A stretch of 64,000 bases of DNA from Pseudomonas sp. KBW05 (GTDB taxonomy: Bacteria > Pseudomonadota > Gammaproteobacteria > Pseudomonadales > Pseudomonadaceae), in assembly GCF_003852405.1 (NCBI RefSeq), contig NZ_QAJM01000007.1, positions 124,001 to 188,000 on the forward strand, given 5' to 3'. Position numbers and translations under genes: made by a program. Every line of letters begins with the position of its first letter. Position 1 is the first letter of the stretch. Positions 21,832 to 62,641 of this stretch are shown piece after piece. Under the pieces are notes generated by a model, which saw only the letters and a list, made by a program, of their open reading frames with translations, did not search any database and was not told the DNA's origin.

Positions 21832-22994
21832 GGGGCCTCTCCGATAATCAGGCTGACGTTGTTGCCGCCGAAGGCAAACGAGTTGCTCATCAGGCAGCGT
21901 TTTTCCAGGGTGTCGCCGCGCCGTGCCCAGTGCAAGGCTGGCAGCGCCGGATCAGCCACGCCGTCCCAGACGTGGGGCGGCAGTTGGCCGTGGGTCAGGC
22001 TCAACCAACAGAAGGCGGCTTCCAGCGCGCCAGCCGCACCGAGGGTGTGGCCGCTCATGGGCTTGGTCGATGAGCAGGCCACGCCGTGCGGGAACAGGTT
22101 GGCGACGGCCAGGCTTTCCATGGCGTCGTTGTGCTGGGTGGCGGTGCCGTGCAGGTTCAGGTAACCGATCTGCCCGGGCTGCAATTTTGCGCTGGCCAAC
22201 GCCTTGCGCATCGACTGCAACGCGCCTTTGCCGCTGGGTTCGGGCGCGGAGATATGGTGCGCGTCGCAACTGGCGCCGCTGCCCAGCAGGGCGATGGGCG
22301 CCGGTGCCTTGCTCATCACAAACAGCACTGCCGCCTCACCGATATTGATGCCGTTGCGGTTCACCGAAAACGGGTTGCAGCGCTCGTTCGACACCGCTTC
22401 CAACGAGCTGAAGCCGTTGAGCGTGAGCTTGCATAAGCTGTCCACGCCACCACAGATCACCGCATCGCAGACGCCCAGGTCCAGCAGGCGCTGGGCACTC
22501 ATCAGCGCGCGGGCACTGGAGGTGCAGGCGGTGGAAATCACATAGGCCGGGCCGCTCAGTTGCAGCCAGTCGGCGAGGAAGTTCGCCGGGGCGCTGAGTT
22601 CCTGCTGCTGGTAGTCATAATCGCCGGGGAACTGGTTTTCCCGCAGGAAATGGGCGATGCCACGACTGGCCTCGTCGATGCCGGAAGTGCTGGTGCCCAG
22701 CACAACGCCGACCCGCGACGCGCCGTAGGTGCGGATCGCCTGGCGAATCTCGCCCTCGATCTGCAACGCCGCTTCCAGCAGCAGCTGGTTATTGCGGCTG
22801 CTCTGCTGGCCGAGTTCCGCGGGGATAGTCGCCAGCTCGCCGTGCACAGCGCCTACCGGCAACACACGCTCCGGCACCCAACCGCTTTCGGCGGCCATGC
22901 CCGAGCAGTCGCCGGCAAACAGGCTGCGGCTGACCTCGGCCTGGCCACGGCCGAGGGCGCAGATCACGCCGAGGGCGTTGAGGTAGGCCGTCAT
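21828..22994 (-). CDS. apeO: Beta-ketoacyl-ACP synthase of aryl polyene cluster (ApeO-like)
   Basis: This is a 388-aa ketosynthase with active-site Cys157 (STACTSSARA) and His residues in LNLHGTATQHND and MSGHTLGAAG. ApeO is the catalytic half of the ketosynthase/chain-length-factor pair that extends the polyene; its likely partner is the ApeC-like protein at the other end of the operon. ATG 22994 overlaps the upstream stop (ATGA). The longer frame upstream was rejected because it lies inside the lipoprotein gene. Confidence 0.9.
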   Translation of the reverse strand: MTAYLNALGVICALGRGQAEVSRSLFAGDCSGMAAESGWVPERVLPVGAVHGELATIPAELGQQSSRNNQLLLEAALQIEGEIRQAIRTYGASRVGVVLGTSTSGIDEASRGIAHFLRENQFPGDYDYQQQELSAPANFLADWLQLSGPAYVISTACTSSARALMSAQRLLDLGVCDAVICGGVDSLCKLTLNGFSSLEAVSNERCNPFSVNRNGINIGEAAVLFVMSKAPAPIALLGSGASCDAHHISAPEPSGKGALQSMRKALASAKLQPGQIGYLNLHGTATQHNDAMESLAVANLFPHGVACSSTKPMSGHTLGAAGALEAAFCWLSLTHGQLPPHVWDGVADPALPALHWARRGDTLEKRCLMSNSFAFGGNNVSLIIGEAP

Positions 22995-23473
22995 TGCGCG
23001 GCCCCCAGCGGCGTGATGCGGTAGCTCAGGGGCTGGCCGCTGATGTTCACGCTGAACACCTCGGACGACTGATACACAATCTGCCAATGGCCCGGCAGGG
23101 TGCGCGTCAGGTCCATCGCCTGGGCGCTTGGATACAGCGCGCGCAGATCATCGGCCGAGGTCAGCGCAAACAGCAGCGCGGCAAACAGCTCGCGCGCCTG
23201 GGGATTGGGCGGCAGCAAGCCGTCGGCCTGCCACTGTCCATCGATCAGCTTTTGCCGGGCCTGGGGAATGCCCAGCGGGTCCATCATCGACCAGCGAATG
23301 CCGTTGCCTTCGCGTTGGATCACCAGCAGCCAGTCCTGGCTTTGGCCGTCGGCCAGGCGTTGCACGTGCAATTGCAGGGGCAACGCCAGGCTCGGGGTTT
23401 TCTCCGGCAACGGTGGCTGGCTGGCGCAGGCGCTCAGCAACAACAGGCAGCCGATCAGCAACACACGGATCAT
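22991..23473 (-). CDS. apeN: DUF3261 lipoprotein (ApeN-like)
   Basis: This 160-aa protein has a signal peptide and lipobox (LLLLSACAS, lipidated Cys at about 16), followed by a DUF3261-like body. Proteins of this family occur in aryl polyene clusters and are thought to help place the pigment lipid in the outer membrane; the mechanism is not known. ATG 23473 sits exactly at the lipoprotein signal and overlaps the methyltransferase stop (ATGA). Confidence 0.85.
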   Translation of the reverse strand: MIRVLLIGCLLLLSACASQPPLPEKTPSLALPLQLHVQRLADGQSQDWLLVIQREGNGIRWSMMDPLGIPQARQKLIDGQWQADGLLPPNPQARELFAALLFALTSADDLRALYPSAQAMDLTRTLPGHWQIVYQSSEVFSVNISGQPLSYRITPLGAAQ

Positions 23474-25481: not shown

Positions 25482-27794
25482 TCATAAGGCGTGTTTCTGT
25501 TTCCCGGCCCAGGGCGCCAGCATAAAGCTGAATGCCAGGCCGAGGCTGACCGATAAGCCGAAATTACTCACCGCCGGTGTGCTGGACACCGCCAGCAGGC
25601 CGAACGACAACCAGGTCGTCAGCGCCGCCAGCAGCGTGCCCAGCAGGCTGACCGCCGGGCCGCCGATCTGTTCGCGCATGAGGATCGCGTAATCGACGCT
25701 GATGGCCGTGACCAGCAGCAGGCCGAACAGGCTGAACAAGGTCAGCGGCTGGCCCAGCCAACCGAGGCTGGCCAGGCTGCACAGTGCGGCGAGCAACGGC
25801 AGGGCGACGATGCGCAGGGCACCGCCGAAGCCGAACGGCAGGATCAGCAACAGCACGATCAGCACGCACGACATCAATTTCAATTCAGCGGCGCTGATCT
25901 GCGTATCGGCAAACACCCGGTTCAGGTCGCCGAGGCGATCCACCAGTTGCACCCCGGGCAAGTCCAAGGCCTGCACCCGCAGTAGCGCCGGGTTGTTCAG
26001 GCCTTGCAGGCTGACCATCGCTGCCACGCCGCCGTCTACCGGGCCGAGCCACAAGGTACGCCAGGGTTCGGCCAGCGGGCCTTGCAGCGCGGCGTCGATG
26101 TCTTGGGTGGGCAGCGCTTGCAGTTGCGCGACTTCGCCTTGCAGGGCGCTGGCGGGGACGCCGAGATCCAGCAGCGGTTGCCAGTGTTGCGGCAGATTGT
26201 TCAGTGCCTCGCGCAGCGTTTGTTGCTCGGCGGGCAGGCTGACCAGTTGGCTGAGCGCCATATAGCCTTGGAGCTTGCCCATGTTCACCAGTTGGTCGAG
26301 GCGCTGGCCCAGGGCGCTTTCCCGTTCCAGCAACTGCTGTTGGTTCTCGGCGCGCACCAGAAAGAACTGGCTAGTGGGTTGGAACCCGGTAATCCGCGCC
26401 ACGGCTTGTGCTTCTTGCAGCAATTGCGGCGGCGCGCCGATCCATTGGCGAATGTCGTTTTTGCTGTTGAGCTGCCACAGGCCACCGGCGCAAAACAGCA
26501 GCAGCAGGACCAGCAGCGCCGCGCTCGGCACGCGCTTGAGCAACGATTCGCGCACCAGCCACAGGCATTCGGCAATGCGCAGCGGCCATTGCGCCGGGCG
26601 CAGTTCGACGCCCTTGAGCAGCGCCGGCAACAGGCACACCGCAGACAGGTACGCGCCGACCAGGCCGGCCGCCGAGAACACCGCGATTTGCGTCAGCGCC
26701 GGGAATGGCGTCCAGGCCAGCGCCAGGTAACCGATGCAACTGGTCGCCAGGCTCAGGCTCAGCCCCGGCAGCGTCAGGCGCAGCGCCGGCCAGCTGCGCC
26801 AGGGGTTCAGGCTCCAGCTTTTCGACAGGTAGTGCAGCGGGTAATCCACCGCCACGCCGATCAGGCTGGAGCCCAGCACCAGGGTCATCACATGCATATG
26901 GCCGAACAGCGCCACACAGGCCACCGCGCCAAACAGCATGCCCACCAGCACCGGCACAAACGCCAGCAACACGCGCCAGCGGCGGAAGGCGAGCAGCAGC
27001 AACAACAGGATACCGACGGTGGCGCCGCCGCCGACCCATGTGATTTCCCGCGTGGCTTGCTGCTGACCATTGGCCGCATACAGCAGCCCGCTGGCGGCGA
27101 GCAACTGCGCGCCTTGCTCGCCGGCCTGTGCACGGCTAGCCTGGAGCAGGTCCGCCACTTGCAGCGGCAGTTTCATATCGAAGGCATTGCCGGTGGTGCG
27201 CGCACGCAGCAGCACCCAGCTCTTGCCGTCGGCATCGGCAATCAACGCGCCGCTGCCGATATCCAGCTGTACCGAGCCATGTTGCGGCTGGCTGTTCTGG
27301 ATGCGTCCGGTCAGGCCCAGCCAGTCATCCTGGCTCGGCACCAGGCTGAAGCCGGTGAAGGGGTCGAACAGCGCTTGCACACGCTGCTGGATGAATGCGT
27401 CGGGTTGTTCGATCAGTTGCTCGCGGTCCTTGGCCGAGAGCATCGCCAGGCGCCCGCGCAGCAATTGCTCGCGCAGCGCCGGCAAGTCGGCTTGCAGGTT
27501 CCACTGGACCTTTTCAAACAGGCCGCTGGCTTGCCAGCGCTCGCCCAATTGTTGCGCCACGGCCACCGCTTGCTGGCGGTCGGCATGCCCCACCAGTACC
27601 AGCATTTCGCGGTTCAACGGCTCTTGCATGCGCTGTTCGGCTTGCAGCTCCAGGGCGTCCGGCGTGTTGCCCGGCACCAGCTCCATCAGGTTCGCCGACA
27701 ACGGCGCGCCATGGCGCCACTGCCAGCCGGCCAGGGCCAGCACGGCCACCAGCAGGATCAGGAACAGGCGCGGTAACAGACACTCACTGCGCAA
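25482..27794 (-). CDS. apeM: RND/MMPL-family exporter (ApeM-like)
   Basis: This 770-aa inner-membrane protein has two repeats of one membrane helix, a large periplasmic loop and a bundle of five to six helices, typical of the MMPL/RND branch. In aryl polyene clusters this protein is thought to move the polyene lipid from the inner membrane towards the outer membrane, with the LolA-like carrier next to it. The start is a TTG at 27794 overlapping the end of apeL by 11 bases. No in-frame ATG is available near there, so the start is uncertain. Confidence 0.87.
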   Translation of the reverse strand: MRSECLLPRLFLILLVAVLALAGWQWRHGAPLSANLMELVPGNTPDALELQAEQRMQEPLNREMLVLVGHADRQQAVAVAQQLGERWQASGLFEKVQWNLQADLPALREQLLRGRLAMLSAKDREQLIEQPDAFIQQRVQALFDPFTGFSLVPSQDDWLGLTGRIQNSQPQHGSVQLDIGSGALIADADGKSWVLLRARTTGNAFDMKLPLQVADLLQASRAQAGEQGAQLLAASGLLYAANGQQQATREITWVGGGATVGILLLLLLAFRRWRVLLAFVPVLVGMLFGAVACVALFGHMHVMTLVLGSSLIGVAVDYPLHYLSKSWSLNPWRSWPALRLTLPGLSLSLATSCIGYLALAWTPFPALTQIAVFSAAGLVGAYLSAVCLLPALLKGVELRPAQWPLRIAECLWLVRESLLKRVPSAALLVLLLLFCAGGLWQLNSKNDIRQWIGAPPQLLQEAQAVARITGFQPTSQFFLVRAENQQQLLERESALGQRLDQLVNMGKLQGYMALSQLVSLPAEQQTLREALNNLPQHWQPLLDLGVPASALQGEVAQLQALPTQDIDAALQGPLAEPWRTLWLGPVDGGVAAMVSLQGLNNPALLRVQALDLPGVQLVDRLGDLNRVFADTQISAAELKLMSCVLIVLLLILPFGFGGALRIVALPLLAALCSLASLGWLGQPLTLFSLFGLLLVTAISVDYAILMREQIGGPAVSLLGTLLAALTTWLSFGLLAVSSTPAVSNFGLSVSLGLAFSFMLAPWAGKQKHAL

Positions 27795-28479
27795 AGTCGT
27801 GTCTCTCCGCGTCGCTCAAGGGCAGGGCTGCGGTGCTGTCCTGCATCCGCAGCAGGGTGCTGTCGCCCTGGGTTTCCAGCAGCTCGATTTTTTGCACCAG
27901 CTCGCCACCGTCGATATTGATCTGGGTGAAGACCTGTTTTAACAGCAGGGAGCGTGGGATCAGCGTCAGCTTCCAGTCGTTGGCCTCGCCTTTCAATTGC
28001 AGTTCGAAGTCACGCTGCAAGCCGCTGCTGTCGCCCTGGAGCACGGCAAGGAACAGGCGATTCTGCTCGGCACCGGCGCTCTTGTTCGGCAAGGGCTGCC
28101 AACCGCTGGCGTCACGGCGGGCGATGCCTTGGGCGCTGATGCGGTAGTCCTGTTGCAGCGGGGTTTTCAGCAGCCACAGCAGGCCGTGGTCCTTGGCGAG
28201 GACGAAGGTGCCTTTGCTGACCAGCGGTTGGGGCAGGGCACGCAGGTGTTTTTCCTGGGTGAAGTTGCCGTGGATGACCGAGGGTTTGGCCAGTTGGTCG
28301 CTGAGTTGCTGCAAGTCAAAAGCATGGGCCATGCCTGAAACGCTCAACAACAGGATGAACGCGGTCCATGTGGGAGCGGGCTTGCTCGCGAAGGACCTGA
28401 GGGCGCCGCGGCGTGTCAGGTACCCAGTGATATCGTTGACGACCTTCGCGAGCAAGCCCGCTCCCACAGGGGATTTCAT
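27784..28479 (-). CDS. apeL: LolA-like periplasmic carrier (ApeL-like) with REPIN inside its 5' end
   Basis: LolA-fold proteins ferry lipids across the periplasm. The body (from FDLQQLSDQL) matches the LolA-like proteins of aryl polyene operons. ATG 28479 overlaps the thioesterase stop (ATGA). Codons 5-37 are encoded by a REPIN. Removing those 33 codons joins MKSP to WTAFILLLSVSGMAHA, a compact normal signal peptide. With the REPIN the 231-aa frame stays open and the n-region is about 33 residues longer and contains several Arg and Lys. Whether export still works, or whether translation starts internally at a CTG/TTG, cannot be told from sequence. Confidence 0.85.
   Translation of the reverse strand: MKSPVGAGLLAKVVNDITGYLTRRGALRSFASKPAPTWTAFILLLSVSGMAHAFDLQQLSDQLAKPSVIHGNFTQEKHLRALPQPLVSKGTFVLAKDHGLLWLLKTPLQQDYRISAQGIARRDASGWQPLPNKSAGAEQNRLFLAVLQGDSSGLQRDFELQLKGEANDWKLTLIPRSLLLKQVFTQINIDGGELVQKIELLETQGDSTLLRMQDSTAALPLSDAERHDFAQ
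28369..28468. repeat. REPIN E inside apeL coding region
   Basis: Inverted GTGGGAGCGGGCTTGCTCGCGA arms enclose a longer spacer than the other copies of this type (total 100 bases). Unlike all others in the window it lies within an open reading frame and keeps the frame open. Confidence 0.93.
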
Positions 28480-28901
28480 TTCAAGGCTCTCTCTACGGCG
28501 TCGGTGAATATCTTGGGGGAGGCCAATTGCATCTCGCGACTGGCGATTTCCACCGCCACTTGCACCGTGCTCGCTCGGGTCAACCGCTCGCCGCTGGCCA
28601 AATCGGTAATCAGGTAATTAACCTTCAAACGGTTCTCCCACTCCACCAGGCTCGCGCGTACGTTGATCGTCTGGCCAAATACCGCACCACGCACGTAGCG
28701 CAGCTGCATGTCGATCACCGGCCAGGCGTAGCCCGACTCCAGCATCTGCGTGTAGTTGTGGCCGAGTTTGTCCAGTAGCGCGCAGCGCGCCACTTCCAGG
28801 TACTTCACGTAATGCCCGTGCCAGACGACGTTCATGGTGTCGACGTCGAAAAACGGCACGAGGATCTCGGTGTCGCAGTGCAACACGCCGGGGCTACGCA
28901 T
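28476..28901 (-). CDS. apeK: Acyl-CoA/acyl-ACP thioesterase, hotdog fold (ApeK-like)
   Basis: This 141-aa protein resembles 4-hydroxybenzoyl-CoA thioesterase. The FFDVDTMNVVWHGHYVKYLEVAR motif holds the catalytic Asp and the conserved His. In aryl polyene operons ApeK is a thioesterase believed to release or proofread ACP-bound intermediates. Its ATG lies inside the end of the ammonia-lyase gene (8-base overlap) and its stop overlaps the apeL start by 4 bases. Confidence 0.9.
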   Translation of the reverse strand: MRSPGVLHCDTEILVPFFDVDTMNVVWHGHYVKYLEVARCALLDKLGHNYTQMLESGYAWPVIDMQLRYVRGAVFGQTINVRASLVEWENRLKVNYLITDLASGERLTRASTVQVAVEIASREMQLASPKIFTDAVERALK

Positions 28902-59637: not shown

Positions 59638-60321
59638 ATGCATCAAACCTTGCTTCCCGGTGAACAACTCTTCGCCATCGTGAGCGCGGCCAGCGACGCC
59701 AAGCCGCTGACGGCGTGGCGAACCCATGCAGGCGCAACGGCGCTGCACCCCGTTTGGGCCGGCACGGCCTATGCGTCATGGGAGGAGGTCATGCCCTACG
59801 TCGCCATCGTCGAGCGTGGCAGTGCGTTCCTTGATTGGGTGGCCTCCACCGCATCCACCGATTGGGGTTGGCTGGCCGTCTCGTCCAGCCCGTTGGACGT
59901 GGTGATCGCGCACCTGCAAAGCCTGACCAAAGTGTACCTGCCGGAGGGACAGGCGGTGTTCCTGCGCTTCTGGGACGGTGCCCAGATGCTGCCGATCATT
60001 CAGCAATCGGGTGGGGAGATATTGCCGGTGTTCCAGCGTTACCTGATCAATGGCCAGGCGCTGAGCGTGGCAGCAGGCGCGGTGACGGCCGCCAAAGCCA
60101 GCCCATGGTGGCAAGTGCCTGCACCACTGATGGCGCTGCTGGCAGAGCAATCACCGCAGACGCTGATCGACAACCTGCTGCAATGGCTGGAAGAACAGCG
60201 CCCCGACCTCTGCGCGGCCTTCACGCCGACGACCTTGCGGCACAAGGTCGCCCGCTTCGTGCGGATTTCGCCCATCAGCCATGCAGCGCTGGCCGACTAC
60301 ATCGCCTCAGAGCTGGGTTGA
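59638..60321 (+). CDS. DUF4123 effector adaptor/chaperone
   Basis: This 227-aa DUF4123 protein resembles the Tap/TEC adaptors that load a specific effector onto VgrG. It shows aromatic-rich segments (STDWGWLAVSSSPLDVVIAHLQ) and VFLRFWDGAQMLPII. It starts 5 bases after vgrG, so both form one unit. In most T6SS islands the cognate effector follows this gene; here the next gene is metY on the other strand, and both stops overlap by 15 bases. The divergent glycine-rich protein is the only candidate cargo in view. Confidence 0.88.
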   Translation: MHQTLLPGEQLFAIVSAASDAKPLTAWRTHAGATALHPVWAGTAYASWEEVMPYVAIVERGSAFLDWVASTASTDWGWLAVSSSPLDVVIAHLQSLTKVYLPEGQAVFLRFWDGAQMLPIIQQSGGEILPVFQRYLINGQALSVAAGAVTAAKASPWWQVPAPLMALLAEQSPQTLIDNLLQWLEEQRPDLCAAFTPTTLRHKVARFVRISPISHAALADYIASELG

Positions 60322-61584
60322 ACCCAGGGCCTGTTGCAAGTCTTCGATCAGGTCTTCAATCGCTTCGATGCCCACCGACAGGCGGATCATTTCCGGTTTC
60401 ACCCCGGCCTTGGCCTGCTCTTGTTCGTTCATCTGCCGGTGGGTGGTGGAGGCCGGGTGGCAGGCCAGGGACTTGGCATCGCCGATATTCACCAGGCGCT
60501 TGAAGATTTGCAGCGCGTCGTAGAAGCGCACACCGGCTTCATAGCCGCCCTTCAAGCCAAACGACAGGATCGCCGAGGGTTTGCCCTGCAGGTATTTCTG
60601 CGCCAGGGCGTGGTGCGGATGATCCGGCAGGCCGGCGTAGCTGACCCATTCCACTTCGCGATGGCCTTGCAGGAACTGCGCGACCTTCAACGCGTTTTCG
60701 GTGTGGCGCTCCATGCGCAGCGCGAGGGTTTCCAGGCCTTGCAACAGCAGGAATGCGTTCATCGGCGCCAGCGCCGCGCCGGTATTGCGCAGCGGCACGG
60801 TGCGGGCGCGGGCGATAAAGGCCGCAGGGCCGAATTTTTCTGTGTAGACCACGCCGTGATAGGCCGGCTCGGGGTTGTTGAGGCCGGGGAATTTTTCCGG
60901 GTAATCGGTCCAGGGGAAGGTGCCGCTGTCGACAATCATGCCGCCCAGGGAGTTGCCATGGCCGCCGATATATTTGGTCAGCGAATGCACGACGATGTCG
61001 GCGCCGAACTGGATCGGCTTGCACAGGATCGGCGTGGCCACGGTGTTGTCCACCATCAGCGGCACGCCACGGGCATGGGCGACGTCGGCCAGGGCTTGCA
61101 GGTCGATGATATTGCCTGCCGGGTTGCCGATGCTTTCGCAGTACACCAGTTTGGTGTTGTCGTCGATCAGTTCGGCGATGGCTTGCGCGGAGTCGTCACG
61201 GGCGAAGCGCACGTCCACGCCAAAGCTGGGCAGCAAGTGCGCGAACAGGGTGTAGGTGCCGCCGTAGAGCTGCGGCGTGGTGACGATATTGTCGCCGGCG
61301 CGCGTCAGCGTTTGGATCGCATAGTGGATCGCCGCGCTGCCGGCCGACACGGCCAGGGCCGCGATCCCGCCTTCCAGGGCCGCGATGCGCTGTTCCAGCA
61401 CGTCGTTGGTGGGGTTCATGATGCGCGTGTAGATATTGCCGGGCACGTCCAGGTTGAACAGGTCGGCACCGTGCTGGGCGTTATCGAATTCGAAGGCGAC
61501 GTTCTGGTAGATCGGCACGGCGACGGCCTTGGTGGTGGGGTCCGACTTGAAGCCGTGGTGCAGTGCGAGGGTGGCGTCTTTCAT
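60307..61584 (-). CDS. metY: O-acetylhomoserine sulfhydrylase
   Basis: This PLP enzyme makes homocysteine from O-acetylhomoserine and sulfide. The 425-aa product starts MKDATLALHHGFKSDPTTKAVAVPIYQNVAFEF. PLP Lys204 lies in VVHSLTKYIGGHG. The family features SIGNPAGNIIDL and HPASTTHRQM are present. Length fits MetY rather than MetZ. A REPIN (J) lies upstream. The longer ORF upstream has no ribosome site and runs through REPIN J. Confidence 0.93.
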   Translation of the reverse strand: MKDATLALHHGFKSDPTTKAVAVPIYQNVAFEFDNAQHGADLFNLDVPGNIYTRIMNPTNDVLEQRIAALEGGIAALAVSAGSAAIHYAIQTLTRAGDNIVTTPQLYGGTYTLFAHLLPSFGVDVRFARDDSAQAIAELIDDNTKLVYCESIGNPAGNIIDLQALADVAHARGVPLMVDNTVATPILCKPIQFGADIVVHSLTKYIGGHGNSLGGMIVDSGTFPWTDYPEKFPGLNNPEPAYHGVVYTEKFGPAAFIARARTVPLRNTGAALAPMNAFLLLQGLETLALRMERHTENALKVAQFLQGHREVEWVSYAGLPDHPHHALAQKYLQGKPSAILSFGLKGGYEAGVRFYDALQIFKRLVNIGDAKSLACHPASTTHRQMNEQEQAKAGVKPEMIRLSVGIEAIEDLIEDLQQALGSTQL

Positions 61585-61609
61585 GATTGTTATTGACCTC
61601 CTTGGACAG

Positions 61610-61696
61610 TGTGGGAGCTGGCTTGCCTGCGATAGCTTCACCGCGGTGTGCAGGTAATACCGCGTCGCCTGCATCGCGGGCAAGCCCGCTCCCACA
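61610..61696. repeat. REPIN J, hybrid of two types
   Basis: The left arm is GTGGGAGCTGGCTTGCCTGCGAT. The right arm is CATCGCGGGCAAGCCCGCTCCCAC, which is closer to the GCGGGC type. All other copies have two like arms. It lies between metY and rlmJ, in the divergent gap. Confidence 0.88.
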
Positions 61697-61804
61697 TAAC
61701 CGGCTAGATCATTTTCAGCGAAGTTCCTGCGCTTTAAGCATAAGCACCGCACTGCACCTGAGCACGCGTAAAAGGTAAACTTCGCCCCCTGCGCAGGAGC
61801 AACC

Positions 61805-62641
61805 ATGAATTATCGTCACGCCTTTCACGCCGGCAACCACGCCGATGTCTTCAAACACCTGACCTTGACCCGCCTCATCGCCCTGATGTCGCGCAAGGAG
61901 CAGCCGTTCACCTACCTCGATACCCACGCCGGGATCGGCCTGTACGACTTGCAGGGCGACCAGGCCAACCGTACCGGTGAATACCTGGAAGGCATCGCGC
62001 GCCTGTGGGGCCAAAGTGACCTGCCGCCGCTGACCGCTGATTACATGCGCGTGTTGCACGAGATGAACCCGGATGGCCAGTTGCGCTACTACCCGGGCTC
62101 GCCGGAGCTGGCACGCCGCCTCACGCGGCCGCAGGACCGCGTGTTGCTCAATGAAAAGCACCCTGAAGACGGTGTGCTGCTCAAAGACAACATGAAGGGT
62201 GATCGCCGCGTCAAAGTGCATCTGGGTGAAGGCTGGCATGTGCCGCGTGCCCTGCTGCCAGTGCCGGAAAAACGCGCGTTGATGCTGATCGACCCGCCGT
62301 TCGAGAAGCTCGACGAGATGCAGCGCTGTGCCTCCTCCCTCAAGGAGGCCGTGAGCCGCATGCGCCAGACCGTCGCGGCCATCTGGTACCCGGTGAAGGA
62401 CCAGCGCATGTTGCGCCGCTTCTATCAGGACCTGGCCGGTACGGGTGCGCCAAAGCTGCTGCGTGTGGAGTTGTTGGTGCATCCATTGGATACGCCGAAC
62501 ACCCTGACGGGCTCGGGCCTGGCGATTGCCAACCCGCCGTGGGGTTTGGAAGAGGAATTGCGTGAGCTGCTGCCGTGGTTGTCCAAGCAACTGGGGCAGA
62601 CTCAGGGTGGGTGGCAGATGGATTGGTTGATTGCTGAGTAA
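61805..62641 (+). CDS. rlmJ: 23S rRNA (adenine-2030-N6)-methyltransferase
   Basis: RlmJ methylates A2030 of 23S rRNA. The 278-aa product begins MNYRHAFHAGNHADVFKHL, typical for this family, with THAGIGLYDL as the SAM site near residue 40 and the DPPFE catalytic motif near 162. Length is normal. GGAGCAACC lies ahead of the ATG. Confidence 0.95.
   Translation: MNYRHAFHAGNHADVFKHLTLTRLIALMSRKEQPFTYLDTHAGIGLYDLQGDQANRTGEYLEGIARLWGQSDLPPLTADYMRVLHEMNPDGQLRYYPGSPELARRLTRPQDRVLLNEKHPEDGVLLKDNMKGDRRVKVHLGEGWHVPRALLPVPEKRALMLIDPPFEKLDEMQRCASSLKEAVSRMRQTVAAIWYPVKDQRMLRRFYQDLAGTGAPKLLRVELLVHPLDTPNTLTGSGLAIANPPWGLEEELRELLPWLSKQLGQTQGGWQMDWLIAE

Follow-up and report, generated by a model that had tools for sequence, protein, structure and literature searches.

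The first codons of apeL, the gene of a LolA-like carrier, have taken up palindromic repeats in frame again and again across Pseudomonas. The copy in the 64,000-nt stretch of DNA analysed here (the window) is a REPIN, and 166 of the 308 distinct thioesterase/apeL junctions that we read across the genus carry an insert at this spot, with 141 lacking one and one (L055) being a duplicated junction. We consider it likely that the n-region of the ApeL signal peptide is a recurrent and tolerated landing site, where REPINs settle behind the stop codon of the upstream gene and the disposable n-region hosts the copies that are in frame. The label extragenic reflects the view that REPs stay out of genes; in apeL, by contrast, a single codon neighbourhood of a single gene family has repeatedly received several repeat families, in different frames and orientations and in up to five tandem copies, and the gene still looks functional.

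On the minus strand, ATGAAATCCCCT runs from position 28479 and leads into a REP arm; after the 48-nt loop comes the second, inverted arm, and beyond it lie the hydrophobic core and mature ApeL (Table 1). The inverted arms are 29 nt each, are 97% complementary and have 48 nt between them, and both contain GTGGGAGCGGGCTTGCTCGCGAAGG, a GTGG/GTAG-type REP tetranucleotide followed by a palindrome; the element thus has the two inverted REPs and the spacer by which a REPIN is recognised. The sequence-only reading had placed a REPIN in frame within the apparent n-region of the ApeL signal peptide, and the arms, lying in an open 231-aa ORF, bear this out. It was also right that codons 5-37 are repeat, bordered by MKSP and WTAFILLLSVSGMAHA, and that the gene starts on the thioesterase stop, the ATG at 28477-28479 overlapping the TGA at 28476-28478 as ATGA. 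A putative hydrophobic core and an A-x-A motif can be made out in the protein ahead of FDL. ApeL matches PF03548 (LolA) at 31.7 bits (cut-off 23.6) and also PF19574 (LolA_3), and the gene before it encodes a 4HBT thioesterase. The aryl polyene cluster of E. coli, in the account of its gene order in PMC8253772, runs ApeK thioesterase, ApeL LolA-like protein, ApeM RND transporter and ApeN LolB-like protein, so that apeL likewise stands between a thioesterase and an RND/MMPL exporter.

The repeat is abundant in this genome. A REP 16-mer has 20 matches in the window at up to 2 mismatches, against 0.17 expected, and a REP 23-mer has 539+545 matches in the genome at up to 1 mismatch, against 0 for a control pattern; the latter figures count REP matches and not the 98-nt loop type. 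At 98 nt the apeL element is longer than the 21 other REPINs read in the genome, 20 of which measure 87-88 nt and one 85 nt. It has the 77-nt spacing of the GTAGGAGCGAGC-type pairs of two other genomes (G017 and G122) but GTGGGAGCGGGC-type arms, a combination suggesting that the arms were replaced. REP populations tend to be extragenic, whereas the apeL copy lies inside an ORF, and we therefore class it as an intragenic REPIN variant.

Table 1. Features of apeL and its operon neighbours in the window.
Feature	Position	Strand	Basis or remark
apeL (231 aa), LolA-like periplasmic carrier, signal peptide extended by the REPIN	27784..28479	-	ORF, open; Pfam matches
REPIN, 98 nt, codons 5-37 (33 codons) of apeL	28370..28467	-	
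Upstream REP arm, translated VGAGLLAK	28443..28471	-	
Downstream REP arm, translated FASKPAPT	28366..28394	-	
REPIN loop, long-spacing type	28395..28442	-	Differs from the loops of 21 other REPINs read in the genome
Putative signal-peptide hydrophobic and c-region, codons 38-53 (WTAFILLLSVSGMAHA)	28321..28368	-	Read from the sequence
Mature ApeL, from FDLQQL	27787..28320	-	Predicted cleavage site
ATGA overlap of apeL start and thioesterase stop	28476..28479	-	
Possible ribosome site AGAGAGAG of the upstream start	28487..28494	-	Suggested by the sequence
Thioesterase (apeK-like), REPIN directly after its stop	28476..28901	-	PF13279, PF03061
MMPL/RND-type exporter (apeM-like), next gene	25482..27794	-	PF03176
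apeN-like lipoprotein	22991..23473	-	Without REPIN in this window

We searched 399 Pseudomonas genomes, this strain's among them, and located the protein in 317. One locus from each of 270 of these was read together with 80 named loci (L126-L128 being three contigs of a single genome), giving 350 loci; 47 of the 317 genomes, 40 of them from more distant relatives, fall outside the reading. The thioesterase was readable in 347 of the 350 loci, which yielded the 308 distinct junctions. An insert was scored if at least 100 nt separate the thioesterase stop from the F of the mature protein, and a short form if the distance is less. At L055 the junction appears to be partly duplicated, the first copy with its frame closed and the second intact. 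Short forms start at the same thioesterase overlap and have ~16 to 30 residues ahead of the mature protein; the first in-phase start (ATG or GTG) is at offset -1 in 282 of the 308 distinct junctions. These repeat-free relatives have ordinary-looking signal peptides spelled in other letters, and none with the N-terminus of the extended form was found, in keeping with the sequence-only reading. Among the 30 best matches, which include this strain, a repeat occupies the same place in 27 of the 29 remaining loci (L015 and L034 are without one), and the exact REPIN-free ancestor form of this strain was not seen among the loci read.

The distribution of inserts on the apeL gene tree (307 tips, ~750 nt, branches under support 80 collapsed) requires at least 35 changes of presence or absence, at least 49 changes of core group or presence, with none as the ancestral state, and at least 62 changes of kind; this tree may differ from the species tree, and transfer of the cluster between genomes would inflate the counts. 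Scars of REP ends are recognisable in three of the 141 short forms (L015, L171 and L293; 0.0 expected), and the mature gene of L293 is 95% identical to that of L285, which has an insert.

An inverted repeat scoring above the best of 20 shuffles is present in 140 of the 166 inserts, compared with three of the 141 short forms; the other 26 inserts have none. We sorted the inserts into kinds, which are our own labels, derived from the protein letters by regular expressions with hand corrections. Kind A (VGAGLLAK / LPAMDV ... ASKPAPT) has 95 members, with a further 5 and 5 having other loops; there are 16 of B, six of C, seven of D, three of E, seven of F, five of G, six of H and two each of I, J and K, and five belong to no kind. 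Kinds B and C are a single element in opposite orientations, and changes are therefore better counted by core than by kind; D and E share a core read in different frames. At the DNA level there are at least four core groups, of the GGAGC.RGCTTGC, GTAGC.GCTG.CGA, GTGGCGAG.GAGCTTGC and CCCTCTCCC types, and 139 of the 166 inserts match one or other of these patterns; 16 of the 27 that match none are of kind A. The first core is read in several frames (VGAG.., CGSG.., WERP..), and the inserts span 66 combinations of kind and length. Four of the kinds are dispersed in the genomes that carry them: A (G000), B (G337, 82 matches), D (G262, 75) and G (G292, 154). Tandem in-frame units are found in P. 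proteolytica (L129; five), P. brenneri (L153; four) and L046 (two), with 212, 183 and 89 residues, respectively, before the mature protein. Three REP types tested in ten genomes range from 0 to 961 per genome. The arms are not always those of the host's commonest REP: in G165 (L061) the type found at apeL has only 12 perfect copies, two of them being the apeL arms, and another type has 45. One locus (L357) has a 392-nt in-frame apeL extension with a GTG start that lies outside all of the repeat groups.

The inserts are specific to their site in the stretches read, which cover apeL, apeN and near neighbours. In 53 of the 80 named loci a REP core lies upstream of the mature start, no more than 640 nt away, and in none of the 80 was one of the searched cores found elsewhere in the ~6 kb read per locus. 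REPs of other genomes sit near the point where the upstream ORF ends, according to the passages of PMC3733652 on their placement. The apeN-like gene of the window also begins at its neighbour's stop, and five of 37 genomes (L417, L418, L420, L424 and L425) have in-frame inverted repeats before the lipobox of apeN, with the gene starting at the upstream stop and each inverted repeat above 100 shuffles; the 37 are a non-random set, hand-picked from apeL carriers and some non-carriers.

We propose that REPINs tend to insert just past the 3' end of an upstream gene, and that this preference would be the cause of the recurrence. In the ape operon, where start and stop overlap, the place behind the thioesterase stop would already belong to the opening codons of the gene that follows. 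The same insert would be expected to break the protein in most such overlapping genes; in apeL and apeN the first codons would specify a signal-peptide n-region, loosely constrained and removed upon export, so that an insert could survive if it kept the frame and were free of stops. The ribosome would initiate at the ATG on the thioesterase stop, translate the repeat, giving an n-region some 20 to 200 residues long, and continue into the usual hydrophobic core. The repeat could later be swapped, decay, be amplified in tandem or be deleted, always in frame. Such a landing site would account for the recurrence, the variety, the in-frame losses, the tandem growth and the ApeN cases.

Selection differs sharply along the gene. 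Among 49 pairs of carriers, pN/pS is 0.72 (95% interval 0.61–0.86) in the extension, 0.31 in the hydrophobic and c-region and 0.10 in the mature protein. The gene thus has the look of a working one in carriers, with hardly any constraint on the extension peptide itself. At the nucleotide level pS is 0.09–0.10 in the repeat arms compared with 0.26 in the mature gene, and the arms remain complementary in most carriers, so that there may be a constraint at the DNA or RNA level, or homogenisation, beyond mere tolerance. It is possible, if unlikely, that selection keeps the hairpin for its RNA, as a control element that would retard termination or re-initiation and so determine the ApeK:ApeL ratio: a stem of nearly 30 pairs stands ~ten nt past the start codon and directly behind the thioesterase stop, and any palindromic family would suffice, so that unrelated families would recur at the start of apeL. 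The predicted hairpin of the apeL REPIN (-70.8 kcal/mol, z -8.8) and the 140 carriers that keep the inverted repeat are consistent with this, and post-transcriptional roles have been proposed for REPs at the 5' ends of ORFs, in the part of PMC3733652 dealing with these. However, the 141 insert-free junctions and the 26 inserts with no stem above shuffles argue against it. The arms speak on both sides, with pairing readable in 59 of 100 kind-A rows and statistics that ignore relatedness: one position covaries (25 G-C, 16 A-T, 18 G-T, 0 A-C), but a second has a non-pairing C-A in 22 of the 59, and covariation is also expected if whole REPINs are swapped or homogenised. Homogenisation with other REPINs would explain the arm pattern, and so would a degree of selection on the hairpin; a regulatory role is possible.

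In every one of the 166 inserts an ATG or GTG lies between -10 and +19 relative to the thioesterase stop, in phase with the mature protein and open as far as it. Of the 126 frames offered by 21 REPINs of this genome, 59 are open, which with one length in three being a multiple of three gives a chance of ~0.16 per random insertion. Openness alone is rejected as evidence of coding, as 18 of 34 REPINs of the genome (that of apeL included) lie in ORFs of at least 120 aa, and the argument is instead built on phase, start site and recurrence. If the repeat were an untranslated intergenic leader, apeL would start downstream of it or inside it, at an arm GTG or an LPAM-type ATG. We judge this improbable, although some ATG, GTG or TTG is present at codons -24 to -13 before the mature protein in 91 of the 166 carriers: only 18 of these have an ATG, the other 75 carriers have no start codon there, a start within the core would leave no charged n-region, and insert-free relatives begin at the thioesterase stop. 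Two other REPINs of the genome do lie in ORF extensions (window 60310-61806, and L003) of genes that, from what we take to be their identities, presumably start downstream. An untranslated position is also suspected for most N-terminal REPs of P. putida in the section of PMC3733652 that treats them. A start upstream of the repeat is most likely for apeL; a start inside it, leaving part of the repeat coding, is less well excluded. The REPIN at 61611-61695 of the window lies in the open extension of the ORF at 60310-61806 (minus strand), ahead of the likely start MKDATLALHH of what we take to be a sulfhydrylase-like gene, and this extension is probably not coding.

The sequence-only reading was also correct that the n-region is long and basic, as the net charge of the extension is +1 or more in 156 of the 166 (0.94), with a mean of +3.6. 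We give little credence to the idea that the REPIN-coded n-region is adaptive as protein, its longer basic stretch altering how ApeL is targeted or when it is exported. In open alternative frames of the same DNA the mean charge is +3.5, so that the mean lends no support to selection for positive charge, although a smaller share of them, 0.79, reaches +1 or more; mild selection on charge is possible on these sequence comparisons. For the kind-A loop pN/pS is 0.63 in the frame used and 1.65 and 0.84 in the two others, but non-A kinds are near 0.90, and the 66 combinations of kind and length and the use of several frames show how variable the sequence and length of the extension are.

The sequence-only reading had raised the possibility that the insert weakens or switches off transport. 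A recent, single insertion in this strain with that effect is scarcely credible: only the oddity of the site speaks for it, relatives carry the repeat, which rules out a strain-specific event, more than half of the junctions have an insert, and mature ApeL in carriers is under the strong purifying selection of a working gene.

A tolerated landing site behind the thioesterase stop is thus our preferred explanation. The wider notion that n-regions at start/stop overlaps are a general refuge for palindromic repeats, whose hairpins are co-opted as translational set-points between the coupled genes and renewed by swapping with the genome's current repeat families, is one that we hold to be rather doubtful. 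The apeL junctions form a replicated natural experiment on REPIN insertion sites, on the swapping of a repeat population with a resident copy and on weak constraint in n-regions, and offer a natural test of selfish DNA living inside genes. They also caution against trimming N-terminal REP extensions as a matter of rule, since such extensions can be genuine.

Intragenic REPs and the Rickettsia elements are already known, and Xanthomonas recB is a precedent; an in-frame signal-peptide landing site that is genus-wide, involves several families and has tandem arrays was not found reported in the open-licence literature searched. The REPINs or REP doublets of the Pseudomonas fluorescens group, as characterised in the relevant parts of Bertels and Rainey (2011; PMC3116915), have in common with the apeL element the inverted REP pair, the high copy number and the hairpin; they were described from extragenic space, whereas those of apeL lie in frame within a single gene and recur at one position across many species. 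Closer in behaviour are the intragenic GTAG/CGTC REP doublets, translated in frame as 20-30 residues, and recB of two Xanthomonas species, in which different REPs occur at about one site (both in the intragenic cases set out in PMC3733652); their in-frame reading and same-site recurrence resemble apeL. Most N-terminal P. putida cases are treated there as probably non-coding, apeL is not named in the passages on these cases, and apeL goes beyond them in genus-wide recurrence, in several cores and frames, in tandem arrays and in its signal-peptide site. The palindromic elements of Rickettsia, kept in frame in protein genes and roughly neutral (Ogata et al. 2000, as summarised in PMC2229807), are likewise in-frame palindromes within genes, a likeness of behaviour and not of membership; they are another family and occupy many genes per genome, and that summary describes no single recurrent signal-peptide site. 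The YPAL/RU-2 MITE that forms part of a predicted signal peptide (Delihas, PMC2229807) is, as at apeL, a small repeat feeding such a peptide. One locus with a hydrophobic-rich frame is highlighted in that account, whereas at apeL the repeat would supply the n-region ahead of an older h-region.
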